Below, one piece after another: positions 35,354 through 63,816 of a stretch of 64,000 nucleotides of DNA. The position numbers were made by a program, and so were the translations under genes. This stretch comes from Bacteroidia bacterium. GTDB taxonomy: Bacteria; Bacteroidota; Bacteroidia; J057. The stretch spans positions 62,001-126,000 of the forward strand of contig JAWPMV010000002.1 in the NCBI GenBank assembly GCA_033391075.1, in the 5' to 3' direction. The notes beneath the pieces were generated by a model. The model was not told the origin of the DNA. It saw only the letters and a list, made by a program, of their open reading frames with translations, and ran no database searches. Position 1 is the stretch's first letter. The number at the start of each line of letters is the position of its first letter.

Positions 35354-35422
35354 GATGAAGATTATTGGAATTGATAAAGTCTTGGTTCGCTTGTAAAAGA
35401 TACTAATTATCGAGGGAGTCTG

Positions 35423-46171: not shown

Positions 46172-48508
46172 TCAATTCAACACCTTATTTTCAAGGAATT
46201 TCTCTGTCCTATCATCCTTAATGACCCCCTTCCAGTTCAATCCAAAGCCAAAATCATACACATTCCCTTCTGAATCCTGATAAAGGTCCAGATCAAACGG
46301 TACATCCTCAGCCTGTTTTTCGACGCTTGCCATATTTGCGGGCATTTGCATGGGTAACAAAGCGGAGGGTTCTGCTTTGCCGGAAATGATATCAAACAGT
46401 GCCTGGTCCTGAACCCCGAAGTTGACCAGAATGGCTGCTGCATATTTTTCAATTTCGGAAAAAACCATAGGATTGCCGGTGTTGACAGATACAATGACAG
46501 GTTTGCCCTTCATGAGGGCCTTGGTTTGGGCTACCAGTTCCGCATCCGTTTTATTGGCCGTTTGGGTGCTTTTGTTTTTGTAGGAACGGTTGGTGAAATC
46601 CTCAAGTGGGTCGCCACCGGCTATACTCACGGCTCTGGCTTCTGTAGCCCTATAATCCCCATATTGCAAGCTAATGGGAATATACCCATTCCCGCCTTTT
46701 GCCAGCTCAGCTTTGTCATAGCCAATAGTAGCGTCTGGATTTTCAATGAAAACCAATGCCACATCCGCCTCTCCGGGCTTATCCGTTACATGATAATATT
46801 TTTTAACCAAATCCAGATTTACCGGATAATCGCTGGAAGCAGGCGTCTCCATACCCAAAAAATTTCGGCTCGCAGGTACGTATCTTTTCGGTACATAGAC
46901 CGTCATTTTCTTTGCAAGGGGCAAAACCTCTCCCTGATTTTTGAGCAAGACTATAGATTTAAGTTGAGCCTCATATCCAGCCTTCATAAATTCTGGATTG
47001 CCAACTGTGGCTTTGGTTTCCGGTATGTCGAGGTAAGGATTTTCAAAGACCCCCACCCTAAATATGTTTTTGAGCAAACGGACTGCAGATTGTTCCATAC
47101 GCGCCCGCATCTGATCTTCTCCCATTTCGGCTACCCCTTTTTCATAGGCATCGATGATCGGTTGGGCCTCGTTGTTTCCTCCAAACTGGTCAACTCCAGC
47201 CATAAGGAGTTTGTAGTGCCTGTCGACGACTGAAAGGGTTTCAGCTCCCCAGCTATGTCCATCAATGAAAACATCCATAGCATTATGGTCGCTGGTAACG
47301 CCCCAATCGGTACAAACTACACCCTCATATCCATATTTCTCACGTAACAAATCGGTGATTAAGTATTTGTTATAGGCATTGCCTACATTCTCACCATACT
47401 TTTTGTCCTGATTCCATGAAATGGTGTAGTAGGGCATGATAGCGGAAGCAATTTTTGTTTTTCCCTTCAATTTGAAAGCTCCTTCTGTAAAAGGGATCAG
47501 GTGTGTATCAAAATTATTGCCGGGATAAACCGCATATTTTCCAGAGCCGTAATGGGCATCCCTTCCGCCTTCTCCCGAGCCACCACCCGGCCAGTGTTTG
47601 ACCATGGCATTTACGCTATGGAATCCCCAGCCACTGGCAAGTTCCTGGCTTCCTTCAGAAGTCTGAAACCCGTCGCAATAGGCTTGTGCCATCGCAGCAG
47701 ACAAGTTTGGGCTCTCGCCAAATGTACCGCTGAAGCGCATCCATCGGGGCTCAGTTGCGATGTCTATCTGAGGCGAAAGGGCAGTCGTGATACCCAATCC
47801 ACGGTATTCTTTGGAGGCGATATCTCCAAATTTTTCTACCAGATCGGGATCAAAGGTCGCCGCCATGCCCAAAGTACTGGGCCACATGGATATTTCACCT
47901 CCTGCGGCAGCATCGTATTCTGCTCGTGCCTGTGTGCCATGTCGAGGGTCAGAGCTATTGTTGGCAGGGATGCCTTTACCCAGACTTTCGCAAAAACTTT
48001 GTAGCTTATTGTTCCATTTAGCAGCTATCTCCGGACTTTTGACTGTCGTGAGCAAGACATGACGCAGATGATCTTCTTCTAAAAACTTTTTTTGCTGATC
48101 GGTCAAATTGCTAGGGTCTGTCTCTCCTTCTGTATAGGGTTTTCCGTCATAGGTTCCGGCAAAATAACCTCTCGATCGGGCAGGAATGGATTGATGGGAA
48201 GAGTAGAGCATCAGACCCGCTATTTCTTCTATGCTTAATTGAGAGGCGAGATTTTGAGCACGCTCCTCAAATGTCAAGCGCCAATCTTCGTAGGGATCAA
48301 GTTGGTCGTTTTTATTCAAATCCTTGAAAGCCAGACGGTCAACGATTAAGAGGCTTACCCCTGATGTGGGCTTATATCCCAGGGTGGGGCCGCCTTCATT
48401 TTTAACCAAATGAAAACCTTCTTTTTCTGTCTCAGTCCATTTAGGTCCGCAAGACGATAAGGCCATGAGCATGCAAAATAAACTTAGAATAGGGGCTGAG
48501 GCTTTCAT
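46172..48508 (-). CDS. GH3-family glycoside hydrolase lipoprotein (beta-glucosidase-like)
   Basis: The protein is 778 residues with a lipobox (LMALSSC). The N-terminal TIM barrel covers about residues 80-480 and has the substrate motif HWPGGGSGEGGRDAHYGSG. The nucleophile Asp lies in GVVCTDWGVTSD. The C-terminal alpha/beta sandwich starts near 520 (SIVLLKNQGEVLPL), and the chain ends with a fibronectin-like segment. Members remove terminal beta-linked glucose, xylose or related sugars. It lies 160 bp downstream of the GH106-like gene on the same strand, so the two may act in sequence on a rhamnosyl-glucoside substrate. Confidence 0.93.
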   Translation of the reverse strand: MKASAPILSLFCMLMALSSCGPKWTETEKEGFHLVKNEGGPTLGYKPTSGVSLLIVDRLAFKDLNKNDQLDPYEDWRLTFEERAQNLASQLSIEEIAGLMLYSSHQSIPARSRGYFAGTYDGKPYTEGETDPSNLTDQQKKFLEEDHLRHVLLTTVKSPEIAAKWNNKLQSFCESLGKGIPANNSSDPRHGTQARAEYDAAAGGEISMWPSTLGMAATFDPDLVEKFGDIASKEYRGLGITTALSPQIDIATEPRWMRFSGTFGESPNLSAAMAQAYCDGFQTSEGSQELASGWGFHSVNAMVKHWPGGGSGEGGRDAHYGSGKYAVYPGNNFDTHLIPFTEGAFKLKGKTKIASAIMPYYTISWNQDKKYGENVGNAYNKYLITDLLREKYGYEGVVCTDWGVTSDHNAMDVFIDGHSWGAETLSVVDRHYKLLMAGVDQFGGNNEAQPIIDAYEKGVAEMGEDQMRARMEQSAVRLLKNIFRVGVFENPYLDIPETKATVGNPEFMKAGYEAQLKSIVLLKNQGEVLPLAKKMTVYVPKRYVPASRNFLGMETPASSDYPVNLDLVKKYYHVTDKPGEADVALVFIENPDATIGYDKAELAKGGNGYIPISLQYGDYRATEARAVSIAGGDPLEDFTNRSYKNKSTQTANKTDAELVAQTKALMKGKPVIVSVNTGNPMVFSEIEKYAAAILVNFGVQDQALFDIISGKAEPSALLPMQMPANMASVEKQAEDVPFDLDLYQDSEGNVYDFGFGLNWKGVIKDDRTEKFLENKVLN

Positions 48509-48667
48509 TGAAAATTATAATTAATGTGAAAGTTCTTATTGCGCGAAATTAATTAGTCATTGAGTAAATCAAGAAATTGTTCTTTCAACGTCAGGATTTT
48601 TAGGGTGAACTACGGCAGTAATTGAAATTCTGTCTTTTGATAGGGCACAATCCTAAGCTTCTAAATC

Positions 48668-51600
48668 TTAGCGTCTTTCCACTATCTGTATTTCTCCCAA
48701 CAGACCCGAGGGTTGCAATTGTCCATCTGCCTGATAAAAAGGCATAGTCGTAAAAGTAATCTTCTCTTTCACATCAGGTTGTGCATCTCCAATCAGGCGA
48801 TTAACCCATGAGTTAGTAACTTGAATTTCAAGGGTGTTTTGTCCTTTTTTTAAGGTGTTTTTTAAATCAATGCTGTATGGTGTTTTCCAAAGAATTCCCA
48901 AGGATTGCTCATTGACAATGACTTCAGCTATATTTTTGACTTCCCCTAAGTCCAACTCATATTGAGCATTTTCTGAAATCTCGACTATATCAAAAGTGTT
49001 GGAATATATAGCTGTTCCTGAAAAATATTTGATCCCCTTATTTTCGTGGTCAGACCACGATTGTAAGGTTTCAAAAGTAGCTTGTTCAGGTGCCCCTCTT
49101 CCTTTCTGAAATTTGACTGACCAGGGGCCAGTAATTGTTAGAAATTCGACTTGTTCTTTTGTGGGAATAAACAGCTCGTTTTGAGTCGCCTTTTCCGCAA
49201 AAATTATAAAGAAGGCATCCCAGGATTCAAATTCCAGCGGAATGATGGTGCGATTATTTTCGATTTTGTAAGAAACTGCCTTGGTTTCACCAGTTTGCGG
49301 TTGCCATAGTTGTGGCACTTTTCCAGTAATTCTAAAACTAACATCTATGGAACTTGTATTTTCGCTTCGATTATTTAACCAAAATAGATCTATATCTGCT
49401 GTTTGACGATGACGAAAAAGAATCTTATGGCTGGTATTTTTTACATCAACATCTTTGGAAATATGTAATGACTGTAAAGCTGACTCTATTGAACCTTTCC
49501 ATACATTAGGGCTATTCCAAAGCTGGTTGAGGATCCGCTGAAATTCATTTGCATCATCAGAAAGACTGGGCGTTCTCTCAGGTTTTGTTCCTGTTAGTTT
49601 TGCTCCGGCTTGTACCAATGCATTCAGTTTTTTCAGAATAGGTAGCGTCATCTGTTTCGCACTTTCATCCAGTACAATCAATTGATAAGTATTTCCACTT
49701 TTTGCGGTCAATTGGCCATTTTTCATTTCTATAGCTTCTAGCAGGGCAGTTGCATTGACATAATCAAATTCATAACCTGCTGGAATTGGAGGCAAAGATT
49801 CACGGGAAATCCAGGTGATATTGGTATTTTCACCATAGTAATAAAGTATGTCTGCAATATTTTTGCCCTGTTGTAATAAATAGCTACTTCTTGACAGATA
49901 GTCTATCCAGGGCCTCGCTTGTTTTGCCCAAGTTTCCTGCCTGCCAAAATATTGACCAAATGGCCCCAACGAAAAACCAGGCATTTTATCATCCAGCGGT
50001 TGGTGAACGGAGGTGTGAATCACAAAACGATTTAATCCAGAAGCCAATTCCAAATCAGCTGTGCGTTTTAGTCGGGCAGGATGCTCCTGAAAGGGCTTGC
50101 CCACAGAAGTCATAGACTCAGCCGCTACAAAAGCTTTGTTATAAATATTGGCAACAGAAGCGGCCTCCCGAATATCTGCCTCACTCCGAACCTCTTCATC
50201 GGTTCCTCCTGCCAAACTACCAGGAGTCCACATGGCAGACATGGGGACTTCTGCATTGCGTTTGACATCCATTCCATCGGCAAGGAAAATTCGTTTATTT
50301 TCATGAGATTCCGTGTAACGTCCCATCCCGCGTTTATTCAGTTCTTCGCCTATGATATCATAATGATTTTCGACGATCATTTCTCCAATTGTATTTCTAA
50401 AATCCCAGAGAAATTTTTCACTTTTTTCAACACTTTCAACCACTCTACCCGTCAGAACAGGAAGCCAGGGTCTGATATCGTAGCCTTTTCTTTTTTGAAA
50501 TTCTTCTGGAAAATCGTGTGTCCAGGTCATGTGCCCCGCTTCGTAACTATCTAAAATAATAGAGCCCAAGCCTTTTTCGCCTATTTTACCACCCGTTGCA
50601 TCTTCGTATAAATCCAGATAATGATTTATGTATCTTCTGACAGCTTCTTCATCCAGTTTATCTACTTCCAAACCCGTTGCTTCGGGTGATGCTGGATGAT
50701 TTTGTCGCCCTGTGAGAGAATAGCCAAATCTTACGATTACCCAATGGCCCTCAGGAATATCCCAATTCAGACTCCCGTCTGCCTGCATTTTTTCTGTCAA
50801 GTCAATTATTTTATCCTGCTCAATAGCTATTACTTCTTTTGGCAGATAAGTAGGTGAATCTTCTTGCCAGGGGCTAAATCCTGCCTTATCTTCAAACTGG
50901 TTAATACGGTCGGTGGTGTACAAAACAAATTCGGCTACATTTACCCCTTCTGGTTTTGGTTCTCCCACAGGCAATCCAGCCATCGCTAAAAACGGATTGA
51001 ATGCAGGTGGCAAAGTTTCCCAGTTCATACGCCAATATTTAGCGGTGGCAGGCTCAATACTGATTGTAACTTGCGGAACGATTGACCCAGGAACTTTGGT
51101 TATATCTCTATAATTTACTCCGTCGTCGCTGACCTGCAACGCTCTGTTTTCAGGATTACCATTAAATTCAGCTAAAGGAACAGTGGTTATACCTGTTACA
51201 GAAAAAGCCTTAAAAGTATGAGGCGTAGTAAATTCATATTGGATCCATGCATTTTTACCGACCTCTACTGGCGGCAAATATTCGGAATGATGCAGGTCTC
51301 CATCGGTCAATTTTTTCAGGTTAAAATCACCACCACTGGAACTGACTTTTGGGTTTAAATCCTTTAATGTTTTTTCACCATCAGACATCCTGTAGGCAAA
51401 TACCTGAGCATCCTGATAATATTTGGGTTGCTCGCCGACAAAACCACCAAGAACCCCTCCTTCTTCAGTAGTAATATTTTGAAAATGACCGATATTATCT
51501 GCTGGTTGGGGCAATTTGCCTGAATAAGTTTTTCCTCCTTGTACGATCGTTTCCGTCCATACATATTTTTTCATACCATCTTTGGGCTCTACCCAGGGGC

Positions 51601-52000
51601 CGCCTGTTTCGCTCCAGCCTGGAGAGCCTGCAATGGTCATTTCCATGCCTTTTTCAATGGCCAGATCTGTAGTAAAGCGGAAAGCTTCTTTCCATTCCGG
51701 CGTCATGAAGACCAGTTTTTTCTCCGTTACCAGTGGCGTGAAAAGGTTAGCATCGAAATTGTGAAATCCACCAATTCCTGTTCTTTCCATCCAGTCCAGA
51801 TCTTTTTGGATACCTTCTTTGGTGATATTGCCGTTCATCCAATGCCACCATACTCGGGGACGGGCTTCATTGGGAGGATTCTGAAAACCAGAGAGAAGCT
51901 CCTCCCTTGACATGCCAGGGGTAGAGCTTTTGGGGGAACAACTCCAATGGGAGAAGGATAGGATTCCTAAAAACAAAGAAGTTAGTAGTAGATTTTTCAT
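48668..52000 (-). CDS. GH106-like alpha-L-rhamnosidase lipoprotein
   Basis: The protein is 1110 residues with a signal containing a cysteine in FSHWSCSPKS. The start of the mature domain (PPNEARPRVWWHWMNGNIT, then GIQKDLDWMERTGIGG) is characteristic of GH106 and related large glycosyl hydrolases. Further blocks include SPGWSETGGPW, IILDSYEAGHMTW and a C-terminal beta-sandwich (WSVKFQKGRGAPEQATFE, then YSIDLKNTLKKGQNTLEIQV). GH106 enzymes remove terminal alpha-L-rhamnose from pectins, other glycans and flavonoid glycosides. It is followed by the GH3 gene and preceded 23 bp upstream by esterase genes. Confidence 0.87.
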   Translation of the reverse strand: MKNLLLTSLFLGILSFSHWSCSPKSSTPGMSREELLSGFQNPPNEARPRVWWHWMNGNITKEGIQKDLDWMERTGIGGFHNFDANLFTPLVTEKKLVFMTPEWKEAFRFTTDLAIEKGMEMTIAGSPGWSETGGPWVEPKDGMKKYVWTETIVQGGKTYSGKLPQPADNIGHFQNITTEEGGVLGGFVGEQPKYYQDAQVFAYRMSDGEKTLKDLNPKVSSSGGDFNLKKLTDGDLHHSEYLPPVEVGKNAWIQYEFTTPHTFKAFSVTGITTVPLAEFNGNPENRALQVSDDGVNYRDITKVPGSIVPQVTISIEPATAKYWRMNWETLPPAFNPFLAMAGLPVGEPKPEGVNVAEFVLYTTDRINQFEDKAGFSPWQEDSPTYLPKEVIAIEQDKIIDLTEKMQADGSLNWDIPEGHWVIVRFGYSLTGRQNHPASPEATGLEVDKLDEEAVRRYINHYLDLYEDATGGKIGEKGLGSIILDSYEAGHMTWTHDFPEEFQKRKGYDIRPWLPVLTGRVVESVEKSEKFLWDFRNTIGEMIVENHYDIIGEELNKRGMGRYTESHENKRIFLADGMDVKRNAEVPMSAMWTPGSLAGGTDEEVRSEADIREAASVANIYNKAFVAAESMTSVGKPFQEHPARLKRTADLELASGLNRFVIHTSVHQPLDDKMPGFSLGPFGQYFGRQETWAKQARPWIDYLSRSSYLLQQGKNIADILYYYGENTNITWISRESLPPIPAGYEFDYVNATALLEAIEMKNGQLTAKSGNTYQLIVLDESAKQMTLPILKKLNALVQAGAKLTGTKPERTPSLSDDANEFQRILNQLWNSPNVWKGSIESALQSLHISKDVDVKNTSHKILFRHRQTADIDLFWLNNRSENTSSIDVSFRITGKVPQLWQPQTGETKAVSYKIENNRTIIPLEFESWDAFFIIFAEKATQNELFIPTKEQVEFLTITGPWSVKFQKGRGAPEQATFETLQSWSDHENKGIKYFSGTAIYSNTFDIVEISENAQYELDLGEVKNIAEVIVNEQSLGILWKTPYSIDLKNTLKKGQNTLEIQVTNSWVNRLIGDAQPDVKEKITFTTMPFYQADGQLQPSGLLGEIQIVERR

Positions 52001-52023
52001 GACTTAGGTTTTGTCCAAAAATT

Positions 52024-53583
52024 TCATTTTCGATCTTCATTTTGCAGGACCTTCTTCTCTAAAAAGTCCAGGGCTTCTTTCAATAAGGCTTTCTGCGATT
52101 TGGTCTCATTTTCCAGGGTCAAGATAGTTCCTGATTCTTTTTCATATATCTCCCAGACTGGCAAGCCCGCTCCATTGGGATTGCCAGTCTTGGTAAAGTT
52201 GACCCAATAGGAAGACATCACCTCCTCCAACTTTCTATCCAAAGGCTTCCAGGGACGCTTCCAGGTATGCAGAGTATGCAGCGCATAGGGCACTTCAGAC
52301 GTATGAAAGGCACCATAGTTAGGGAAATCGGGTTTGTCTGGAGGTACATGACCGAACTGGTACAAATAAGTGGGTTTGGTATTAAATCCTGCTAATAAGT
52401 GAGAAGGCAGACCCGCAAAATTCAGCATAGCTAATTTACTATTAGCAACTTTGACTTCTTCATTCGTAGTAGCAGAAAAAATATGCAAAAAAGCATCAGC
52501 ATTTTCCCCATATGTCTTTTGAGCTTGCTCCCGATAGGCTGCCACCGACATTTCCGTTCTGCCCAAAAAATCTCCGTCTCCTGTTACCCAACCCGCCATA
52601 ATAGGTACCTGTTGGTGCAAGCTTTTCTCAAAATGGCTCAATAAATTTTTGGGTAAAACATAGCCATCCAGGGTAACACCAAATCGCCCAATTTCTCTGT
52701 CATTGCTGATTTTCTGCAATTTATCGGCAGGCAGTTTCCGCAAATCTTCGAGAGAATTCGCCTCTGCCTTTTTCATAAAACGCATACCCATTTGTTCAAC
52801 CTCTGTCAACCCCTGCTTCAGCCTGCTAGATAATAAACCCCCACTTTGGAGGATGGCTTTGTGAAATAGGCCTTTCGCTAAAGGAGAGGCAATCAAGGCA
52901 TTCACACTAAAAGCACCTGCCGATTGCCCGGCTATGGTAACATTATCCGGATCTCCTCCGAAAGCTGAGATATTTTCTTGTATCCACCTCAGAGCAGCCA
53001 TTTGATCCAGGAAGCCATAGTTCCCAGATGCCTGGTACACGGATTCTTTGCTCAATTCGGGATGTGCCATAAAACCCAATACCCCTACCCGGTAATTGAG
53101 GCTGACAAAGATAACTCCTTTCTTCGCCATTTCTTCACCATCATAAATGTCGCAATTGGCAGAGCCGCTATTTAGCCCGCCCCCATAAATCCAGACAAAA
53201 ACGGCCTGCTTCTCTTTGTTTGATTTTGCACTTGTCCATACATTAAGGTACAGGCAATCTTCGCTTAAGGGTTCTGGTTGAGCGATAAATTCTTCTGACC
53301 AACAATAGAAAGGTTTGGGCTCATTCTGGATGGGGCTGGGAGAAAAATCCGTACAGGCTAAAATTCCCTCCCATTCATCAACAGCTTGAGGGGCTTTCCA
53401 CCTTAAGTTTCCGAGGGGTGGAGCGGCGAAAGGAATGCCTTTGAAAATGCGCACCTTACTCTGAGCATTAAATTTACCTTGGATTTTGCCTTTATCGGTT
53501 TGAATGACTGTTTGTTGCGCCTGTAGCAAAATGGGGAAACATATAAAAAGAATGCTTATGTAGTATTTATATTTGAAAGACAT
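52024..53583 (-). CDS. Type-B carboxylesterase (first of three)
   Basis: The protein is 519 residues from the ATG at 53583, which gives a normal signal peptide (YYISILFICFPILLQAQQ); upstream in-frame starts overlap the previous gene. It has the carboxylesterase family pattern FKGIPFAAPPLGNLRWKAPQ, EDCLYLNVW, the oxyanion WIYGGGLNSG, the nucleophile Ser in VTIAGQSAGAFSV, and a C-terminal His in NYGAFHTSEVPYA. The elbow is GQSAG rather than the more common GESAG. It would hydrolyse acyl or aryl esters in the periplasm. It begins 16 bp after the next esterase's stop. Confidence 0.9.
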   Translation of the reverse strand: MSFKYKYYISILFICFPILLQAQQTVIQTDKGKIQGKFNAQSKVRIFKGIPFAAPPLGNLRWKAPQAVDEWEGILACTDFSPSPIQNEPKPFYCWSEEFIAQPEPLSEDCLYLNVWTSAKSNKEKQAVFVWIYGGGLNSGSANCDIYDGEEMAKKGVIFVSLNYRVGVLGFMAHPELSKESVYQASGNYGFLDQMAALRWIQENISAFGGDPDNVTIAGQSAGAFSVNALIASPLAKGLFHKAILQSGGLLSSRLKQGLTEVEQMGMRFMKKAEANSLEDLRKLPADKLQKISNDREIGRFGVTLDGYVLPKNLLSHFEKSLHQQVPIMAGWVTGDGDFLGRTEMSVAAYREQAQKTYGENADAFLHIFSATTNEEVKVANSKLAMLNFAGLPSHLLAGFNTKPTYLYQFGHVPPDKPDFPNYGAFHTSEVPYALHTLHTWKRPWKPLDRKLEEVMSSYWVNFTKTGNPNGAGLPVWEIYEKESGTILTLENETKSQKALLKEALDFLEKKVLQNEDRK

Positions 53584-53599
53584 AAGGGTATTTTTGGTG

Positions 53600-55237
53600 T
53601 TAATTTTTATTACCATAAGCCTTATCCAAAAACTCATAACGAGTATCATGCTTGGCTTTTATCCCTTTACTTTCAGTATCCAAAATCATCACCGGCGGTA
53701 TAGGATCGTTGGCTTCTGCTGGTAGCCACTCTGCCAGATCTTTCGCATTGGGGTTACCTGTTTTAATAAAATTGGCAAAATATTCCTGCATAGTAGCTGA
53801 GACTTTATAATCATCGGGGGTCCAGGCATAATCTTCAACTAAATGCAAATTTCCCATACAATATTCGATTTCGCAAGCATGAGGTGCACCAACGGATTTG
53901 GGAGGTTCTGGGGCATTGGGATCTCTTTCTACAGTTCCTCCCGCCAGGCCTGACATTAAATTTTTGTCTGTCAAAGGGGGGCGCAGTTTGCTGTACAAAT
54001 AGCGATAAACGGGTTGCTGGCTATTTTTTCTGTGTAAGTCAAACCATTTCCAGGTACTGTAAGCGATAAATCGATCAGAGGCCAAATCAGTCGCGGAATG
54101 TTCAATTTCTATTATAGAACCATGTGGATACAGTTTTAACACCTCTCCATGTTTTTCAGGATAAGCAGCCTTTACTTTTGCCATATAATTTTCTTCGGTA
54201 TAAGGTTGACCTTGCATAAATGCCATACCAGGAATTTCTGCTGAGTTCCACCCCAGTAAGAGTGGAATTTGAGCTTGTTGTTTAGCCTCAAAAATTTCTG
54301 GTAAGGATTTATGTAAAAAATGTCCATCAATCACCACAGGAAACCCAAACCTTCCAGACTCATTATAAAGTTCATAGATATCTCTAGTTGGTAATTTTCT
54401 TAGTTCGGCCAGGGTGGGATAGCCAGCTTTCGTAGCAAATTCCAGACCCGTTTTTTCTGCTTCTTCCAGAGATACTGGCGCTAGCGTAGGGTGTATACCT
54501 GCACCACTTTCCCCAATTGCACCGGCAATTAGATCCTTAGACATAGGAGATGCCATTTGATAACTAACGGAAATAGAACCTGCGGATTCCCCTGCAATCG
54601 TTACTTTATTAGGGTCTCCCCCAAAAGCTGAAATGTTTTTTTGCACCCAGGCCAACGCAGCCTGTTGGTCAAGCAAACCGTAATTGCCCGATGCATTGTA
54701 AGGAGCCTCAGCGCTTAAATCAGGATGCGCTAAAAAGCCAAAAATATTCAAACGATAATTGACAGTAACAGCCACTATCCCTTTTTTTGCCATACTTTCC
54801 CCATCATATCGATATTCAGAAGCATCCCCAGCAACAAATCCGCCTCCATAAAAATAGACTAAAACGGGTAAATTTTTCAGCTTTCTAGTAGTTGGTGTCC
54901 AGATATTCAAATACAAACAATCTTCACTGACCCCATCGGAGCGTGATTTCATATCGCCAAAAACCAGGGTTTGCATGGGGCGGGGGCCAAATTTTTTGGT
55001 CGCTTTTACTCCTTCCCAATTATCTAAAGGTTGAGGAGCTTTCCACCTCAAATCTCCAACTGGAGGCTTGGCAAAAGGCACCCCAAAATAGGATTGAATA
55101 CCATTTCGAGTATCGTAATTGCCTTCGATACGTCCATTTTCAATTTGAACCTGTACGGGAAAAGCATCTTTGTTTTGAGCTATTCCTAGTTGGGGTAAAA
55201 AGATAGCCAGCATAGCTATTAAAATATTTTTGGTCAT
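53600..55237 (-). CDS. Type-B carboxylesterase (second of three)
   Basis: The protein is 545 residues from the ATG at 55237 (MTKNILIAMLAIFLPQLGIAQ), chosen for its clean signal peptide. Family motifs are YFGVPFAKPPVGDLRWKAPQ, EDCLYLNIW, FYGGGFVAG, the nucleophile Ser in VTIAGESAGSISV, and the late His in VGAPHACEIEYCMG. It is a paralogue of the esterases on either side, but the three are well diverged, suggesting different acyl substrates on one target. It probably heads a short operon that includes the next esterase and perhaps the GH106 gene. Confidence 0.9.
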   Translation of the reverse strand: MTKNILIAMLAIFLPQLGIAQNKDAFPVQVQIENGRIEGNYDTRNGIQSYFGVPFAKPPVGDLRWKAPQPLDNWEGVKATKKFGPRPMQTLVFGDMKSRSDGVSEDCLYLNIWTPTTRKLKNLPVLVYFYGGGFVAGDASEYRYDGESMAKKGIVAVTVNYRLNIFGFLAHPDLSAEAPYNASGNYGLLDQQAALAWVQKNISAFGGDPNKVTIAGESAGSISVSYQMASPMSKDLIAGAIGESGAGIHPTLAPVSLEEAEKTGLEFATKAGYPTLAELRKLPTRDIYELYNESGRFGFPVVIDGHFLHKSLPEIFEAKQQAQIPLLLGWNSAEIPGMAFMQGQPYTEENYMAKVKAAYPEKHGEVLKLYPHGSIIEIEHSATDLASDRFIAYSTWKWFDLHRKNSQQPVYRYLYSKLRPPLTDKNLMSGLAGGTVERDPNAPEPPKSVGAPHACEIEYCMGNLHLVEDYAWTPDDYKVSATMQEYFANFIKTGNPNAKDLAEWLPAEANDPIPPVMILDTESKGIKAKHDTRYEFLDKAYGNKN

Positions 55238-55339
55238 AATTCTATGGTTTATATTCAAATTTTGAATTTGTGGATTTAGTAACACATGAGGCTAGTTAAA
55301 ACCTATTGAAGTTCCGTTTTCTGGTGATAAAAATCGCTT

Positions 55340-55492
55340 TTAGTTTATCCTTACCCCAATCGCATCAAACATATCCATCATTTTTCCTTTTAAGGTGCTG
55401 TTATCTTCCTTTGCCAGTTTTACCTTTACATTAAACCCTTGTGCTGCAAAGGAAAACTCAATACTATTTGTAGTTTCCTGAATATCTGCCAT
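55340..55492 (-). CDS. Small hypothetical protein (50 residues)
   Basis: An ATG at 55492 opens a 50-codon frame beginning MADIQETTNSIEFSFAAQGF and ending MDMFDAIGVRIN. It has a strand-then-helix pattern and protein-like composition, unlike random intergenic sequence. It lies on the same strand as, and between, the pirin-like gene and the second esterase gene. It could be a small independent gene or the 3' remnant of a longer one. I recognise no family. Confidence 0.45.
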   Translation of the reverse strand: MADIQETTNSIEFSFAAQGFNVKVKLAKEDNSTLKGKMMDMFDAIGVRIN

Positions 55493-55560
55493 AGTAATAG
55501 GTGGGCTCCTTATTAGTATAGGTTTAAGAAATAGCTTTGTTTTTGTTAAGAGAACACTAG

Positions 55561-56250: not shown

Positions 56251-56935
56251 CTACATTGATGGTATGTGTGAGGGTATAGCCTGCTGAAATATTTCCTGCC
56301 AATTCCCCCATTTCCGCCTCGAGGGAACTGCCAAAGACACCGTCACGATTGTTAGGAGTATCTTGTAAGCCTCTTGTATAGAACTCACTCTTAGTGTAAA
56401 CGGTATTACATTCCTTTTCAGGAAAGGCAATTTGGGTTACCAATAAGGAATTTCCTTTGGCGTCAAAGATATGCACATGAATATGAGGTGCTCTACCTGG
56501 GTACCAACCTGGAAATATGGAACGAAACCCTACCTTCCCTTTGTTATCACTAATCTGTCGGCCACGTAGGAAATGAGCCGCACTGAAATCCTGTCGTTGC
56601 ATACGCATACCTCCATATTCTGAATAATATCCGTCTTTATCGCAGAGCCATATATCGACAATTGCATCAGGAAGAGGTGCACATTTATTATTTAGGTTTT
56701 GCACGTGGATAGCAATTTCCAGATCAACCCCTTTTCGATCAGATCTTATGTCAGCTATTTGAAATGCAGCTGGGTTCTTAGTTGGGAAAGGGCCAGCTGT
56801 TTCAGAAGGGGTAAGATCACAGTCGCCAACTTGATTTGAAAGAGTACTGTTTTGGGTTGCAGCCAGCACAATAGGTACAACCGTTAGCACTCCAAGTGCT
56901 TTTATCCCTGTTTTTAGAAACTTTTCTCTTTTCAT
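56243..56935 (-). CDS. Exported intradiol ring-cleavage dioxygenase
   Basis: The protein is 230 residues from the ATG at 56935, with an export signal (KREKFLKTGIKALG, then VVPIVLAATQ). The dioxygenase C domain follows: SETAGPFPTKNPA, IVDIWLCDKDGYYSEYG with the first Fe-ligand Tyr, and FPGWYPGRAPHIHVHIF with the second Tyr and both His ligands. All four iron ligands are thus present. The family cleaves catechol, protocatechuate or hydroxyquinol between the hydroxyls. An exported form is less usual and is found in Bacteroidota. It is coupled to the pirin-like gene. Confidence 0.88.
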   Translation of the reverse strand: MKREKFLKTGIKALGVLTVVPIVLAATQNSTLSNQVGDCDLTPSETAGPFPTKNPAAFQIADIRSDRKGVDLEIAIHVQNLNNKCAPLPDAIVDIWLCDKDGYYSEYGGMRMQRQDFSAAHFLRGRQISDNKGKVGFRSIFPGWYPGRAPHIHVHIFDAKGNSLLVTQIAFPEKECNTVYTKSEFYTRGLQDTPNNRDGVFGSSLEAEMGELAGNISAGYTLTHTINVDA

Positions 56936-57194
56936 GTACAAATTTTATTAGGACTTCCTTGCAACTGAAAATCTGATAGCAGCTCTTATAATGCAAACTT
57001 AAAGTAATCCAAAAGCATCACCTAAAAAATTCTTTAAACGACCGTTTTGTTAGGGGGAACTGCTTGCTACTCATAGAGTAGAAAAATAAATATACCAATT
57101 TAATATTGGGCATTATTTCGAATACAGGTCATGTTGTTTTTCTGGAAAATTTTGACACAATTTGAGCGAGTATTGTGCCGTTTTGGGGGATGCC

Positions 57195-57812
57195 CTAAGG
57201 AAGGATTCCAATGTCTGACAGCCATTGTTTCACCTCCTTTTTGGCTTCTTCCTTTTTAGAACCTTTGATGGCTAAATATACCCCATCACGTTCGATACCT
57301 CCTTGAATAGAAAAGCCTTTGAGAATTTTACTATTTGGACAAAGATCCTTTACAGTTCTAAAGCTGCTTCCTACACCATATCCTGCATTTGTATTAAAGG
57401 GAATGACCGTTTTGCCACTCAAATCATGATGGGTCAAAAAACTTTTAAAGGGAGGAGGCAAGCGCATGCCCCAAGTCGGAAAGCCCAAAAAAATCTTATC
57501 GTATTTCGTCAGGTCAATTCTGGTTTTTAAGGGAGGTAAAAACCCTGTTTCGTTTTCTCGCTGAACCTGCTGCACAATGGCCTTATAATCTTCGGGATAG
57601 GGGGTTTCCAATTCCAAGGCCACCAAATCGCCCCCTATTTCCTGGTGGATAATTTCAGCTATGGCTTTGGTGTTGTTGGTACGGGATAAATAGACGATTA
57701 CGCCTTTATCGGAATCAAAAGTGGCAGCCTTATTGACTGGCTGAGTTTGGAAATTAGCCTGGCCGAGTATGACCAAAAAGGAAAGAATACAGAGAAGGCC
57801 GATTTTTTTCAT
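57195..57812 (-). CDS. Exported flavodoxin-family protein
   Basis: The protein is 205 residues from the ATG at 57812, which begins a signal peptide (MKKIGLLCILSFLVILGQA); an upstream start at 57860 would disrupt it. The flavodoxin_4 fold shows the FMN phosphate loop IVYLSRTNNTKAIAEII, the second FMN loop FLGFPTWGMRLPPP, and the late loop PFNTNAGYGVGSS. It would carry electrons by FMN outside the cytoplasm. It lies 56 bp after the ABM-type monooxygenase gene and just before the dioxygenase gene, hinting at a redox role in the aromatic part of the cluster. Confidence 0.88.
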   Translation of the reverse strand: MKKIGLLCILSFLVILGQANFQTQPVNKAATFDSDKGVIVYLSRTNNTKAIAEIIHQEIGGDLVALELETPYPEDYKAIVQQVQRENETGFLPPLKTRIDLTKYDKIFLGFPTWGMRLPPPFKSFLTHHDLSGKTVIPFNTNAGYGVGSSFRTVKDLCPNSKILKGFSIQGGIERDGVYLAIKGSKKEEAKKEVKQWLSDIGILP

Positions 57813-57868
57813 AGAAATATAGCTTTTTGCACCCCAAGGCTTCTGAGAAACCTTGGACAAGAATTTGC

Positions 57869-58294
57869 CTAGGGTAATTTTCTGAAAATTTGGGTCATCG
57901 TTTCCTGATCTAAGGCTTTCATATCAATCAGATTCAATGATTTGACCATTTCGAGCGTCGAAGACTTATATTTTTTGAAATGGGGTGTTAGGAGATGTGC
58001 TTCGTAAGCATCTTTGTTAACGTAGATTTCCAGGAGCCTGATTTCTGTTGGATTTTCTTTTTCAAACATGGGGTAAATGCAGATCACTCCGGGTTCTAAT
58101 CTGACCGATGCTTCTGCTTCCTCTTTTAAGATAGCTAGGTAATTATCAAGGGAGCTAGCATCTATTTCCAATTCTGCAATCCGGATCATCATATTGCTGG
58201 TGTCGAACGTCTGAGTATTAGGTTTCTGCGTGTTACAAGCACTTCCGATTAAGGTCAGGGAGAGAGCAAGGAAGACTATTTTTGGGAAATTCAT
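57869..58294 (-). CDS. ABM-family putative quinol monooxygenase lipoprotein
   Basis: The protein is 141 residues with a lipobox (LTLIGSAC). The mature part fits the antibiotic-biosynthesis-monooxygenase dimeric ferredoxin-like fold: MIRIAELEIDASSLDNYLAI, EPGVICIYPMFEKENP, and EIYVNKDAYEAHLLTPHFKK with the usual His. Relatives such as YgiN oxidise quinols or reactive aromatic intermediates without a cofactor. Next to an exported flavodoxin and an exported ring-cleavage dioxygenase, it may handle quinone intermediates. Confidence 0.85.
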   Translation of the reverse strand: MNFPKIVFLALSLTLIGSACNTQKPNTQTFDTSNMMIRIAELEIDASSLDNYLAILKEEAEASVRLEPGVICIYPMFEKENPTEIRLLEIYVNKDAYEAHLLTPHFKKYKSSTLEMVKSLNLIDMKALDQETMTQIFRKLP

Positions 58295-58486
58295 ATTGGG
58301 TTTTCTTTTTGTTGATTCATTTTACTCTCACTAATTTTTTGCTGAAATTGGTATTTAACACCAGGATGGCTTGTCCTTTGGAGTGGTTTTTCAAATTATG
58401 CGCAAAAATATCTACTCCTGAGCAAGGGTTCTTACATTGAAAGCCTGGGTGTCCAATATAGACTGATTTTTGAAAAGGCAACAATT

Positions 58487-60001
58487 CTACAAACAAGTAA
58501 TAATAGCCCTCTGATAACGGGTCATAGGATATGATCCACTGTCCGTTACTTCTAAAATCAAGTGAATGGTTTCACCTTTTTGAATATCATTTGGCATAGT
58601 AAAAGTTAGCCCAATTTGATTAGAGACATTGAGATTGACTTTCCCATCATAGGTATCTACTTCTTCATACTGCCACCATTGGTACTTCAATTCATCGCCA
58701 TCCGGGTCATTAGCTTTCGCCATCAATTCAATTTTTTCACCGGCCTTAGCCGTAAGGGTTTTTTGTTCAAGCAATACTTGCGGAGGATGATTGGCATTTT
58801 CATAATCCTTTATGCACCAATCGGCTCGCGCTGCAAAGTCATTTTGTAAGGTTTTTACCCAACGAGTTTGAGGGTAAGTAGTATCTAAGGTATCGGTAAA
58901 GGGGTTATAATCACTTGCCCCTTTCCCGTCTTCCCACCGATTCGGATCTTGTTCAGATTGCACTAAACGCCCTCCCCAGCCTCCATAGTGAGGATTATCC
59001 AAATTATCCAGTCCGGTATCGATCAAGTGAAAAAAAGCAGGAGAGTCACCTTCTGAAATAAAGTCGAACTTTTTAAAACTTCCCCATTGGGCATTTTTCA
59101 ACTGGGTAGAATCACCATGTATATGTTCATCATCACCTTCCTGCTTTTTTCCATCCCCATAGCTGTAATACATCTGGGTAAGGTCCCCATGATTGAGAAT
59201 GATGTTTTGTCCCATAAATTCTCCTTCCAGATACCTATGCCAGGCTTTGGGTACAGCGCTTTTCCACGGATAAGCAAAACACCAAAATTGGTTAGCATTG
59301 TAATAAATGCTAATGTCCTGCCAATTTTTTGAAATGTACTTTCTGTATGTGGCATCCTGGTCCAGAATCGTATAAATAATGGCTTTATCACATACTTTTT
59401 TATAAATCCCTTCCCACTTATCAGAACCTTTGAATTCCTCTTCTATAGATTTTAAGGCTCTTGCAATGGTATTTGTGCCTCCCCAAACTTGAAGATATAT
59501 CGGCTCTTCAGTATCATCCAGTAATTTCTTTTTTATATAATCTGAGCCTTCAGTGTCTTTTTCCATTTCTCCCTCGAAATCAATATTCCCTACCCGAATT
59601 AGGCTTCGGAGATAGTCAGGAGCCGGATAAGTTGCTGCATGTTTAATAAGGTTAGGAAATACTTTTTCATAAGCGGCAATTAAATCCTCCATCCAGGTCT
59701 CACCCGGCCAACGCAAATCTGTTTGCTCCCCGTACATATTTTTGGTCATTTCCATTTCAGAAATGAAGGTTGTCCCCTTACCATCACCTTTGTAATGCCA
59801 CATGGAACTACTGTAAATCAGTCCTTCAATGTGAAACTCATTGGCATATAACAACAATCTGATAAAAGAATCGATATCGTCAATTTCACCATCAGTAGTG
59901 ACTATAGTTCGTGGTTTATTAGGTTCCCGGTTCTCATTCTTTGGTGATTGACAGGAAAAGGCAAAGACCAAAAACAAGAAAGTTAAAAATGGAGCTTTCA
60001 T
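58487..60001 (-). CDS. DUF1593 nucleoside hydrolase-like protein, lipoprotein
   Basis: The protein is 504 residues from the ATG at 60001, with a lipobox (FLVFAFSCQS). A TTG at 60016 abuts the upstream stop but is less likely. The N-terminal DUF1593 domain has VTTDGEIDDIDSFIRLLLYA, like the Asp-rich calcium site of nucleoside hydrolases, and IYLQVWGGTNTIARAL. The C-terminal 100 residues form an immunoglobulin-like domain (GEKIELMAKANDPDGDELKY). The family is common in polysaccharide loci and is thought to hydrolyse a glycosidic bond, but its substrate is not settled. Confidence 0.88.
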   Translation of the reverse strand: MKAPFLTFLFLVFAFSCQSPKNENREPNKPRTIVTTDGEIDDIDSFIRLLLYANEFHIEGLIYSSSMWHYKGDGKGTTFISEMEMTKNMYGEQTDLRWPGETWMEDLIAAYEKVFPNLIKHAATYPAPDYLRSLIRVGNIDFEGEMEKDTEGSDYIKKKLLDDTEEPIYLQVWGGTNTIARALKSIEEEFKGSDKWEGIYKKVCDKAIIYTILDQDATYRKYISKNWQDISIYYNANQFWCFAYPWKSAVPKAWHRYLEGEFMGQNIILNHGDLTQMYYSYGDGKKQEGDDEHIHGDSTQLKNAQWGSFKKFDFISEGDSPAFFHLIDTGLDNLDNPHYGGWGGRLVQSEQDPNRWEDGKGASDYNPFTDTLDTTYPQTRWVKTLQNDFAARADWCIKDYENANHPPQVLLEQKTLTAKAGEKIELMAKANDPDGDELKYQWWQYEEVDTYDGKVNLNVSNQIGLTFTMPNDIQKGETIHLILEVTDSGSYPMTRYQRAIITCL

Positions 60002-60016
60002 ATCACGAATATACAA

Positions 60017-62170
60017 TTAAGGTAAGGCAAACACCCTAATCGAACCCGCAGGATTTTCTGCTGTGCCACCAACCGAAAGAGCCAAGTATTGCTTTCCTTC
60101 TACAGCATAGGAACAAACATTCGCATTATTTGCAGCAGGCAAGCTTGTTTCCCAAATCAAATCGCCTGTCATTTTATCAAAAGCCCACAATTTTTTGTCG
60201 GCTGCTCCACTTATGAACACCAAACCACCTGCAGTTACCATAGGACCTGAGCGTCCTAAAAGACCTGTTGGGGGAGCGCCTGCTTCCTGTAATGTTTCAT
60301 CATTGCCAAGCGGTATTTGCCACTCATATTCGCCGGTGGATAGATTTAAGGCATTCAGGGTCGCCCAGGGAGGCTGCAAAGCAGGATTGCCGCTAGGATC
60401 ACTCCAGGTTCTATAAGGGGTGATATTCATATACCTCTCTGGTTCTTCTTCACTATTTGTGACTTGCGGCACTTCTATTTTAGCGTTTTTCTTATCGTAT
60501 AAAAAAGCCATGATAGCACTTTCTTCGCTTGCCGTCAATACCCCTTTGTAGCCGGGCATTTGTCCGCCTCCCTGTCGTATTTTTTCCAGGGTTTCCGATT
60601 CAGAAACTCTTTCCGTTAGATCTGCTATAGAAGGAAAGCTTGGTGGCAATCCTTTCTTTTCCGCGCCATGGCAGGCCACACAATGTTTTTCATAGGTAAC
60701 ACGACCTTGATCAAAAAGCGTATTACTCTGGGCAGCAAAATGCTCATTGGCATCAACGATCGTCTGTATTTCGGGTAAATTATTCCCCCTGATGTAGAGA
60801 TAAGTTGTATTGGGGTCAAACGCTGCCCCGCCCCAGTTGGCGCCGCCTCGTGTTGCGGGTATCGAGAGGGTTCCTTTCAAATCGGGAGGAGTGAACAAAC
60901 CTTCAAAGCGTACAGATCTAAAGGTTTTCAGAATTGCCTCATGGTCTGCATCAGAATAATGAGTTAGGTCTTCTTCGGACATGGATTGTCTCACAAAAGG
61001 CTTGGGTTTCACAGGAAAAGGCTGTGTCTCATAAGCTACTTCTCCCGGAAGATGGGAGGCTGGCACTTTCCGTTCTTCTACTGGGAAAATGGGTTCGCCA
61101 GTTTCGCGATCCAGCACAAATATAAATCCGTGTTTGGTCACCTGGGCCACTACTTCTATCTCTTTTCCCTCCTGTTTGATCGTTACTAAATTGGGGGGAG
61201 AAGGCAGATCATAATCCCAAATGTCGTGGTGCACAGTCTGAAAATGCCATTTATACTGACCCGTGGCAGCGTCTAAAGCCAATACGCAGTTGCCATAAAG
61301 ATTAGCACCGACTCTATCTGCTCCATAAAAATCATAACTGGGAGAACCCAATGCCAGGAAGACCATTCCTCTATCTGTATCTATACTCATCCCTGCCCAA
61401 CAGTTTACGCCTCCAGCGGTTTTATAGGCATCGGGAGGCCATGTTTCATAACCAGGTTCACCTGGATGCGGTATGGTGTGAAAGGTCCATACCAATTTCC
61501 CCGTTTCACAATGATAGGCACGTATGTAACCGGGAGGCGAACCGTAAAAATCGGGCAAGCGTGAACCAATGATGATAAGGTCCTTAAAAATTCTACCTGG
61601 AGTTGTCAGGGTAACCGAAATTTTTTCATAATCATCTCTCACTCCTACATTTAGATTCACTTTTCCATTTTCACCGAAAGAGGGAATCAATTTGCCCGTT
61701 TTGGCATCTATTGCCATCAAATAATTGCCAGCAGAATATAAAATCCGTTTATCGCTTCCCTTTGCCCAATAGGCAACACCCCTGCTGGCAGCACTGGGTT
61801 CGCCTTCATCCAAAGCTTTAAAAGACCAAATCTTTTCACCTGTTTGGGCATTGAGGGCAAAGACTGTTTGTTTGGCAGAATTGGCGTATAGTACACCATC
61901 TACAATGATGGGATTGCTTTGACTCGATACAGGGGGATCGCCTTGTGGGACATCGTCTATTTGGAAAGTCCAGACATTTTGTAGCTGGTCCACGTTTGAG
62001 ACATTGATTTGGTCCAAAGGGGAGTAACTGCTGCTTTTTTCATCGGCTTTATAGGCGGTCCAGGTATTTGTGTTTTTATCAAGATGCTCATTACAACTGG
62101 GAAAAAGTGAGGCGAGGAGAATCCCTATCATGATTATTTTGAGGAGGAATGGCCTATTTTGTTTTTCCAT
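60017..62170 (-). CDS. PQQ-dependent dehydrogenase with cytochrome c domain, lipoprotein
   Basis: The protein is 717 residues from the ATG at 62170, with a lipobox (LLASLFPSC). The eight-bladed quinoprotein propeller has repeats such as VFALNAQTGEKIWSFKALDE and VLALDAATGQYKWHFQTVHH (the latter before DIWDYDLP, a quinoprotein hallmark). An inserted cytochrome c domain contains the CVACHG haem motif near residue 500. It would oxidise an alcohol or sugar (glucose- or quinate-dehydrogenase type) in the periplasm and pass electrons to the chain. No PQQ biosynthesis genes are visible in this window. It lies 15 bp upstream of the DUF1593 gene. Confidence 0.92.
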   Translation of the reverse strand: MEKQNRPFLLKIIMIGILLASLFPSCNEHLDKNTNTWTAYKADEKSSSYSPLDQINVSNVDQLQNVWTFQIDDVPQGDPPVSSQSNPIIVDGVLYANSAKQTVFALNAQTGEKIWSFKALDEGEPSAASRGVAYWAKGSDKRILYSAGNYLMAIDAKTGKLIPSFGENGKVNLNVGVRDDYEKISVTLTTPGRIFKDLIIIGSRLPDFYGSPPGYIRAYHCETGKLVWTFHTIPHPGEPGYETWPPDAYKTAGGVNCWAGMSIDTDRGMVFLALGSPSYDFYGADRVGANLYGNCVLALDAATGQYKWHFQTVHHDIWDYDLPSPPNLVTIKQEGKEIEVVAQVTKHGFIFVLDRETGEPIFPVEERKVPASHLPGEVAYETQPFPVKPKPFVRQSMSEEDLTHYSDADHEAILKTFRSVRFEGLFTPPDLKGTLSIPATRGGANWGGAAFDPNTTYLYIRGNNLPEIQTIVDANEHFAAQSNTLFDQGRVTYEKHCVACHGAEKKGLPPSFPSIADLTERVSESETLEKIRQGGGQMPGYKGVLTASEESAIMAFLYDKKNAKIEVPQVTNSEEEPERYMNITPYRTWSDPSGNPALQPPWATLNALNLSTGEYEWQIPLGNDETLQEAGAPPTGLLGRSGPMVTAGGLVFISGAADKKLWAFDKMTGDLIWETSLPAANNANVCSYAVEGKQYLALSVGGTAENPAGSIRVFALP

Positions 62171-62199
62171 ATGATTTTCATTCTGCTTCAATTTCTCCC

Positions 62200-63816
62200 T
62201 TAAATCCCCCTTGATTGAAGTTGCTCTCTCAATTTAAACGCTTTTTCAATCACATCCAGTCTCGGTTTTCGCGGATCAGGCTTGCCTACTGCTTTGCCAT
62301 CAGCCTGAATATCGAGTATCTCGTTCTTTTTGAGCGTATAAACGGGCCATTTCGGTAGTCCCTTTCCATTCGGATCACCGGTCTTGGCGAAATTTGTCCA
62401 ATAGGTATTCATTATTTGCGCGACCTGTTGATCTTCAGGTGTTGTCTCAGGGGCTCCCCAGCGGGCATCAAGCGTGTTAAAAACATAGGCAATTTCAGAA
62501 CCGTGTCCAGCTCCAAACCGCATGCGCTCCTGCATGGGGGCGGGAACATAACCGAAATGGTAGATGTATGCGGGTGATTTTTGGGCTACAAAAGACTTGG
62601 CGGTTAAGCGGCCGGGCTCAGCCCATACCCAATCTGTGTTAAACTTTGTGATTACTTCAGCAAATTCTTTGGTACCTTCCGGATCATAAGCAGTTTTAGC
62701 CTCCTCTGCGAGTTCTCCGAAAAGGGAGAACAATTCTTCCTTTGTGCTGCTGGTATTCACAAAACTTCCCCCGATTTCTGCGCTATTCGACCCAATCATC
62801 AGGGGGATCTTTGCCTGCCTTCCTGCCTTATATGCGCTTTCGGCAGATTCTACTACAAATTTCCCATCGAGTATTGGTCCTGAATAGGTACGCGGACCTC
62901 CCTGTCCATCAGATTCCTGACCTCCGTCTACAATCTCTTCTACGCTCAGGGCGCGCAACTTAGCCAGGGCGGCTGCATCTGTACCTTCTATCCCATGTTT
63001 GCGGGCAAAATTTATTCCGATGGTTTCTGCTGAAACCTTGTAGAAGGGATCAGCATTTTCTGTACGTATCGGCCTCCCGGTAAGTACGCCGTCCCTGCCG
63101 CCGCCGGATTGACTAATGGCTTTGTGAAAAAGCCCTTTCGCATCCGGGATAGTCATCAGGGAATGTACAGAGACGCCACCTGCAGAGAAACCGAAAATCG
63201 TGACATTATCAGGATCGCCTCCAAATACAGCAATATTTTCCTGTATCCACTGAAGCGCAGCAATCTGGTCCATGTAGGCATAACTTCCCTTGGGTTCGTC
63301 GGGATGCTCCGCGCTCAGAGCAGGGAAGGCAAAATGACCCAGCCGTCCCAGACGGTAGTTGATGGTGATCAAAATGATCCCTTGTTTGGCAAATGTATGA
63401 CCTGCCGTACCGGGACCTGAACCACTTCCACCCACGAAGCCTCCGCCATGTATCCACACCATGACTGGCAATTTTGCATTCGCTTTAGCCTCTGCAGGTT
63501 TCCAAACATTCAGGTACAGGCAATCTTCGGATGAGCCCTCACTAATCGTACCGGGAGCAGCCCCCCAACCGGACTGCGCGCAATTGGGACCAAAAGTATT
63601 TGCATCACGCACGCCTTCCCATGCGGATACGGGCTGCGGCGGTCGCCAGCGAAATTCGCCAACAGGCGGAGCCGCATAGGGAATCCCCTTGAAGATAGAG
63701 ACCTCAGCTTCTGTGACACCTTGTAGCATGCCAGAGGCGGTGCGAACTGTGGGGGATTGCGCATGTAAAGAACATGCAATCACAGAAAACAAAAATATGT
63801 TAATCAATTTTTTCAT
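62200..63816 (-). CDS. Type-B carboxylesterase (third)
   Basis: The protein is 538 residues with a signal peptide (MKKLINIFLFSVIACSLHAQ). Family motifs are FKGIPYAAPPVGEFRWRPPQ, EDCLYLNVW, WIHGGGFVGGSGSG, the nucleophile Ser in VTIFGFSAGGVSV, and the late His in FGAGHGSEIAYV. The elbow GFSAG differs from the other two esterases (GQSAG, GESAG). It is the first gene of the block with the PQQ dehydrogenase (30 bp downstream) and DUF1593 genes. About 180 bp of non-coding sequence lies upstream to the window end. Confidence 0.9.
   Translation of the reverse strand: MKKLINIFLFSVIACSLHAQSPTVRTASGMLQGVTEAEVSIFKGIPYAAPPVGEFRWRPPQPVSAWEGVRDANTFGPNCAQSGWGAAPGTISEGSSEDCLYLNVWKPAEAKANAKLPVMVWIHGGGFVGGSGSGPGTAGHTFAKQGIILITINYRLGRLGHFAFPALSAEHPDEPKGSYAYMDQIAALQWIQENIAVFGGDPDNVTIFGFSAGGVSVHSLMTIPDAKGLFHKAISQSGGGRDGVLTGRPIRTENADPFYKVSAETIGINFARKHGIEGTDAAALAKLRALSVEEIVDGGQESDGQGGPRTYSGPILDGKFVVESAESAYKAGRQAKIPLMIGSNSAEIGGSFVNTSSTKEELFSLFGELAEEAKTAYDPEGTKEFAEVITKFNTDWVWAEPGRLTAKSFVAQKSPAYIYHFGYVPAPMQERMRFGAGHGSEIAYVFNTLDARWGAPETTPEDQQVAQIMNTYWTNFAKTGDPNGKGLPKWPVYTLKKNEILDIQADGKAVGKPDPRKPRLDVIEKAFKLREQLQSRGI

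Follow-up and report, generated by a model that had tools for sequence, protein, structure and literature searches.

A probable mosaic of three gene modules, with a GH106 rhamnosidase, a PQQ dehydrogenase and an intradiol dioxygenase, on a likely conjugative plasmid of a Bacteroidia bacterium

Do neighbouring genes for rhamnose removal, ester cleavage, periplasmic oxidation and aromatic ring cleavage form one pathway, or have they merely come to lie together? The question is raised by eleven genes, all on the minus strand, that span positions 46172-63816 of a 64,000-nucleotide stretch from a Bacteroidia bacterium (G000:C2:62001-126000, hereafter the window; G, C and L numbers denote genomes, contigs and loci). 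An earlier sequence-only reading proposed an extracytoplasmic pathway for rhamnosylated, acylated aromatic glycosides; the ten genes it named are real and lie on this strand, however, it overlooked a Sde182-like gene at 58487-60016. Using a comparison set of several hundred Bacteroidota genomes, we arrive at another answer, which we consider the probable one. The block would be a mosaic of three modules that met on a probable conjugative plasmid and were there reshuffled and in part eroded; module B (GH106, GH3, EstB, EstC and Sde182) would deglycosylate and deacylate, module A would oxidise, and module C, the ring-cleavage dioxygenase with its partner, would have joined independently. Gene identities, catalytic motifs, conservation of the modules and gene remnants form the observed basis of this mosaic. 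Read from 63816 towards 46172, the block and its remnants are as follows.

62200-63816, minus strand: esterase A (EstA), secreted carboxylesterase (PF00135, E 2.7e-117)
60017-62191, minus strand: pyrroloquinoline quinone (PQQ) dehydrogenase with inserted cytochrome c domain, lipoprotein-like, likely start 62170 (PF01011, PF13442)
58487-60016, minus strand: Sde182/nucleoside-hydrolase-like lipoprotein (PF07632, Sde182_NH-like; PF21027, Sde0182_C)
58347-58466, minus strand: remnant, 3' end of a GH79-type glycosidase gene (52.5% over 40 aa, E 4.6e-7, to L172:9393-10916; PF03662)
57869-58294, minus strand: ABM-domain lipoprotein (PF03992)
57195-57860, minus strand: exported flavodoxin_4, likely start 57812 (PF12682)
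56243-56941, minus strand: exported intradiol ring-cleavage dioxygenase, likely start 56935 (PF00775)
55561-56250, minus strand: pirin-fold bicupin without metal ligands, overlapping the dioxygenase gene (fold match to YhhW)
55346-55573, minus strand: remnant, C-terminal half of a small exported protein (33% over 76 aa, E 1.6e-8, to L188:9687-10067)
53600-55285, minus strand: esterase B (EstB), secreted carboxylesterase, likely start 55237 (PF00135)
52024-53649, minus strand: esterase C (EstC), secreted carboxylesterase, likely start 53580 (PF00135)
48668-52000, minus strand: GH106 alpha-L-rhamnosidase, exported (PF17132; best PDB relative 6q2f, E 1.8e-265)
46172-48508, minus strand: GH3 glycosidase lipoprotein (PDB relatives are GH3 glycosidases)

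The enzyme classes proposed for these genes stood up well to inspection. The rhamnosidase is a true GH106 protein, matching the complete PF17132 model (1-743/743, 1102 bits) and keeping the catalytic and metal motifs DSYE (DSxE) at 484 and AAES at 626 on alignment to 6q2f and 5mqm/5mwk; in BT_0986, which acts on rhamnogalacturonan II (RG-II), E593 is the catalytic base (PMC6828813). The GH3 protein carries the nucleophile motif CTDWG and has 9ul7 and SN243 as its nearest solved relatives, while each of the three PF00135 carboxylesterases shows Ser-(Glu/Asp)-His motifs; EstC is nearest, among solved structures, to fumonisin esterase and para-nitrobenzyl-esterase-like proteins. The iron ligands of the dioxygenase are all present, with tyrosines in YYSEY and GWYPGR and both histidines in HIH (aligned with 6bdj/5vg2), and Pfam confirmed the ABM, flavodoxin_4 and PQQ propeller domains. 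Most of the proteins had been said to bear export or lipoprotein signals, and on inspection of the N-termini, made by eye and not with a predictor, a signal peptide or lipobox was found on every block protein except the pirin-fold one, which looks cytoplasmic.

Conservation of the block as a unit across genomes, the check that the pathway proposal invited, was not observed; three separate modules were found instead. Gaps of 192, 253, 275 and 159 bp interrupt the block and two of them hold gene remnants, of which the GH79-type one sits between the Sde182 and ABM genes and the other between the pirin-fold gene and EstB; kin of the latter adjoin GH106/GH3 elsewhere. Given these gaps and remnants, the spacing does not suggest a single transcription unit, and the remnants mark the block as rearranged and partly decayed. 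A search of the block gaps for the Bacteroidota -7 box yielded no convincing promoter. The possibility of one operon was therefore rejected, on spacing, remnants and the separate conservation of the parts. In those Bacteroidota loci that were searched, no ABM gene accompanied the rest of the block; one is present in a PQQ dehydrogenase operon of Sphingobium RAC03. The adjacent SusC/SusD pair of a polysaccharide utilisation locus is lacking among the block genes, as had been claimed, although a separate SusC/SusD-like pair does lie at 10985-24904 in the window.

Module B is the part of the block for which recurrence is most readily counted. The mapping of GH3, GH106 and EstC orthologues covered 170 genomes of a Cytophagales-like family (that of G255), 60 of which have a GH3 orthologue, at up to 75% identity. 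GH3 and GH106 lie within 20 kb of each other in 6 of the 42 genomes having both (binomial P ~2e-7), and GH3 and EstC in 7 of 50 (P ~3e-8), against a chance expectation below 1%, with genome relatedness uncorrected in both P values. EstB orthologues (72-73%) directly precede GH106 in L195 and L196 or adjoin EstC in L183-L185; EstC adjoins EstB or GH3 in many genomes, and Sde182 orthologues (60-66%) stand beside EstC/EstB in L182 and L207, the former holding EstB, Sde182 and EstC together with further esterases. The genes thus recur in changing pairs, accompanied by GH78 rhamnosidases and other esterases of feruloyl/acetyl type. In two genomes of another family (G245 and G218; the L142 copy was checked by Pfam) a GH3-esterase-GH78 trio occurs, in which the unrelated rhamnosidase family GH78 fills the place of GH106, and runs of GH3, esterase, GH78 and GH106 also occur, where GH78 is an extra, non-homologous rhamnosidase. 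In G354 and G335, GH3 is followed by a run of TonB, DUF5597, major facilitator superfamily, esterase, GH78-like and GH106 genes (identified partly by eye).

These recurrent neighbourhoods, together with the nearness of 6q2f, fit a removal of rhamnose, sugar and ester groups, and the deglycosylation and de-esterification steps of the proposed pathway are to that extent supported by sequence comparison. The exported module B enzymes would free what may be a small rhamnosylated, acylated plant metabolite, such as a flavonoid glycoside or a saponin, of its rhamnose, of a further sugar and of its ester groups. Over its full length GH106 is nearest to 6q2f, which we take to be RHA-P, and far more distant from the RG-II enzyme BT0986. 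Full-length similarity, catalytic and metal motifs and export are common to both proteins, however, the window enzyme is ~40% identical to sphingomonad GH106 enzymes. RHA-P is active on flavonoid glycosides (PMC10653915), and GH106 enzymes of thermophiles take rhamnose off naringin, the activity being low in those cases in which it was measured (PMC6828813). A flavonoid substrate is thus plausible; saponins or rhamnose-rich glycans would fit module B about equally.

Some neighbours of module B orthologues were set aside. In G255 the stretch upstream of GH3 carries SMP-30, short-chain dehydrogenase/reductase and fumarylacetoacetase-family genes, and neighbours of these kinds in G354/G335 were considered as signs of aromatic degradation; non-phosphorylating L-rhamnose catabolism is at least as fitting, and they are therefore not counted as aromatic evidence. 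A gene in G414 (L179:6160-6795) suspected by eye to resemble PhiG/phloretin hydrolase had no Pfam match and was not used. A citrate-type transporter and an AtuA-family protein stand beside EstB/EstC orthologues at L182:17124-19807 (by Pfam) and L154:6725-9323 (by eye). The AtuA family is concerned with acyclic terpene utilisation, and these neighbours hint that the released acyl group may be an organic or terpenoid acid.

The following features lie outside the eleven genes, most of them assigned to module A.

63996-64000, plus strand: first bases of a divergent AraC-family regulator, which continues past the window edge (C2:125996-126907, L009:497-1408; PF12833)
44782-46101, plus strand: EstA-Ig-like esterase, a probable associated gene (PF18435)
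37049-38788, minus strand: LytTR response regulator and histidine kinase, probably detached from module A (PF04397, PF06580)
35999-36967, plus strand: second AraC regulator, detached module A (52-57% to the same AraC group)
32574-35875, minus strand: NTF2-like protein, 2Fe-2S subunit and molybdenum (Mo)-hydroxylase subunit, detached module A (PF14534, PF01799, PF02738)
32075-32559, minus strand: remnant of a second Mo-hydroxylase copy (57-58% to the pEMTOL01 Mo gene L106:27780-30032)

Elsewhere in Bacteroidota these genes are found together. In G363, the AraC, EstA, aldo-keto reductase, NTF2, PQQ dehydrogenase, flavodoxin, kinase, regulator, 2Fe-2S and Mo genes form one cluster, with the flavodoxin orthologue (60%) directly after the PQQ dehydrogenase in the same operon (L214). 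A near-complete module A is carried by pEMTOL01 of Emticicia oligotrophica (NC_018742), a plasmid typed as conjugative, in the order AraC, esterase, aldo-keto reductase, NTF2, PQQ dehydrogenase, kinase, regulator, hydrolase, Mo, 2Fe-2S, Mo. Its proteins resemble those of the window closely (esterase 63%, PQQ dehydrogenase 74%, AraC 65%, NTF2 63%, 2Fe-2S 76% and Mo 60% identity), whereas the window cluster is split, has one Mo copy as a remnant and no aldo-keto reductase seen among the block genes, and has the Sde182 and ABM genes separating the PQQ dehydrogenase from the flavodoxin. More widely, EstA orthologues (61-67%) lie beside the PQQ dehydrogenase (orthologues 72-74%) in pEMTOL01, G363 and G317, and AraC orthologues (64-66%) are next to EstA/PQQ or Mo/NTF2 genes in these three and in G414. 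The kinase and regulator at 37049-38788 match those beside the PQQ dehydrogenase in L106/L214 weakly (31-34%). All of AraC, EstA, PQQ dehydrogenase, NTF2, 2Fe-2S and Mo are thus present in the window or at its edge, but not contiguously; they lie in two parts about 20 kb apart, at 32.6-38.8 kb and 57.2-64 kb.

From what is known of these families, an ester would be expected to be cleaved first and an alcohol, sugar or aldehyde then oxidised in the periplasm. Module A may accordingly be regarded as an AraC-linked operon whose products would de-esterify and then oxidise such a group in the periplasm, passing the electrons to cytochrome c. The PQQ dehydrogenase falls below the curated cut-off of its nearest NCBIfam model, TIGR03074 of the glucose/quinate type (451 against 833 bits), and by this score, although a PQQ propeller protein, belongs to none of the curated subfamilies. 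A search of the genome for pqqC gave no match, as was also the case in the control genomes. A connection to module B is seen in G414, where GH3, GH1, GH78, Mo genes, NTF2, AraC, the orthologue of 44782-46101 (54-57%, between AraC and GH106) and GH106 lie within 33 kb, an arrangement that links the two modules. On Sphingobium plasmids GH106 is likewise beside or near a PQQ dehydrogenase, with a transposon separating them in RAC03, an independent hint that both activities belong together.

The dioxygenase keeps different company. Among 80 named Bacteroidota loci with the dioxygenase (L026-L105), ~68 have the pirin-fold gene adjacent to it or close by, a LytS-type kinase and a LytTR regulator are nearby in 46 (in 43 together with both dioxygenase and pirin), and a 170-residue protein, here X, is present in 40; its confident model, with a predicted local distance difference test score (pLDDT) of 91, has no Pfam family and no PDB fold match. 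Kinase (HK), regulator (RR), dioxygenase, X and pirin form a conserved co-directional set that is widespread in Bacteroidota, and to our knowledge no role has been assigned to it. The window copy shares the pirin-fold partner gene but has neither X nor two-component genes as neighbours. For the remaining nine block proteins there was no match within 10 kb of the dioxygenase in any of the 80 loci, so that ring cleavage is not normally tied to these glycosidases; an exception of a kind is G162 (L148), where an exported, 32% identical dioxygenase adjoins GH3. Contig C4 of the host carries another dioxygenase (48% identical), with no block genes adjacent.

The pirin-like assignment held for the fold and failed for the metal site. 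The protein barely passes Pirin_C_2, however, its model (pLDDT 93.6) has the bicupin fold of YhhW pirin (6uts, 1tq5; Foldseek TM 0.83 to 6uts). Unlike YhhW, its family shows no conserved histidine column in 41-67 sequences, and the quercetinase metal site is therefore absent; a role as quercetinase was rejected, since the three-His/one-Glu ligands are missing. The dioxygenase itself is exported and carries the same ligand motifs as the intradiol dioxygenases that spider mites secrete (6bdj, 5vg2), relatives that cleave flavonoids including eriodictyol and catechin, related secreted dioxygenases detoxifying plant phenolics (PMC9167512). Module C would cleave catechol-type rings outside the cytoplasm, most likely in detoxification, and would have arrived independently.

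How might three modules have come together? The host genome measures 9.49 Mb, with a largest contig of 8.16 Mb, and the 176,398-bp contig C2 encodes a VirD4-type coupling protein, a TraG/VirB4-type ATPase and ParA; the top plasmid matches of the ATPase are Spirosoma, Fibrella and Hymenobacter records (41-44% identity). With these conjugation and partition genes, C2 is probably a conjugative plasmid. The best matches to modules A and B (65-75%) come from a family other than the window's own, and no strong GH106, PQQ dehydrogenase, GH3 or EstC match was found among the few sampled members of its own family, which fits an acquisition of the modules. Plasmid acquisition followed by rearrangement is the simplest reading. 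Resolvase and Tn3-type transposase genes were seen by eye at 2358-9327 and 30627-31340, with three near-identical transposase copies sharing an N-terminus at 6074, 8229 and 30627; these are the likely agents of the rearrangement.

Against such a background the competing explanations can be compared. One dedicated periplasmic pathway for rutinoside-type flavonoids, running from deglycosylation through de-esterification to ring cleavage, would account for the enzyme classes, for the nearness of GH106 to a flavonoid-active enzyme, for the flavonoid-cleaving mite relatives and for the dioxygenase next to GH3 in L148. It is nevertheless improbable: the dioxygenase loci lack the nine other genes, the pirin-fold protein has no metal site, gaps and remnants break the block, and EstA, PQQ dehydrogenase and flavodoxin are part of another operon. 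A single pathway to ring cleavage is not supported, because the oxidases and the dioxygenase belong to separately conserved modules. That module B instead acts on rhamnosylated saponins, while the aglycone or a released sugar is oxidised by the PQQ dehydrogenase, is a tentative possibility. Steroidal saponins are substrates of GH3, GH39, GH78 and GH106 enzymes in Sphingobium from tomato roots (PMC10653915), and the RC1 saponin loci share the combination of rhamnosidase and GH3 with the window, which belongs to another phylum, lacks GH39 and has carboxylesterases and a dioxygenase. On pTomTYG65a of Sphingobium sp. TomTYG65 (L224, 404830-436147), GH106, PQQ dehydrogenase, beta-glucosidase and TonB receptors occur together with 3-alpha-hydroxysteroid-dehydrogenase-like and 7-alpha-dehydratase-like proteins, a possible saponin catabolic locus. 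The Sphingobium homologues are, however, only 37-40% identical, and among the window's genes none for steroid degradation was identified.

That module B scavenges side chains of rhamnogalacturonan, or else other rhamnose-rich glycans of plants or algae or polysaccharides of bacteria, is rather doubtful. GH106, GH3, GH78, SASA and SusCD-type genes are neighbours in G414, DUF5597/GH35-like and TonB genes lie nearby in G354/G335, and on a Hymenobacter plasmid GH106 is accompanied by arabinofuranosidase, GH43 and sialate O-acetylesterase genes, but the block holds neither SusCD nor an endo-acting enzyme and its GH106 resembles 6q2f far more than it does the RG-II enzyme. We think it unlikely that all these genes make up an island for detoxification under phenolic or quinone stress and not a route to nutrients. 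Flavodoxin, ABM, aldo-keto reductase, NTF2, AraC, dioxygenase and pirin-fold genes are typical redox and aromatic-stress genes, and the detoxifying relatives of the dioxygenase point the same way; GH106, GH3 and the repeated esterases with sugar-catabolic neighbours would be left unexplained. A functional mosaic, in which recombination on the plasmid joined modules B, A and C into a new extracytoplasmic route for acylated, rhamnosylated phenolics without a SusCD importer, is very unlikely in our estimate. The mosaic of independently conserved modules, which we prefer, has evidence to contend with as well: in none of 63 genomes did GH106 and EstC lie within 20 kb of each other, so that even module B is loose; the AraC group adjoins varied redox genes, which makes the A-B link through AraC weak; and L-rhamnose isomerase (RhaA) is absent from the genome, with the controls working. 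For this mosaic we infer the substrates, order of steps, regulation and co-expression.

Bacteroidota have been studied chiefly for their polysaccharide loci. The recurrent rhamnosidase-GH3-carboxylesterase sets and the plasmid-borne AraC-PQQ-Mo operon suggest a less explored attack on plant specialised metabolites, a capacity that may move on plasmids, and the role of the HK-RR-dioxygenase-X-pirin module is directly testable. Literature searches found no published description of this gene set in Bacteroidota; the combination is what is new here, the parts themselves being of known kinds.

Other glycan-related genes were noted elsewhere in the window. At 10985-24904, SusC/SusD-like, GH32-like, sugar kinase-like, transporter-like and hybrid-regulator-like genes (by eye) probably constitute a separate fructan utilisation locus. 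A GH113-type glycosidase (41861-42952), on the strand opposite to the block and past its GH3 end, adjoins a TonB-type outer-membrane protein (39063-41696).

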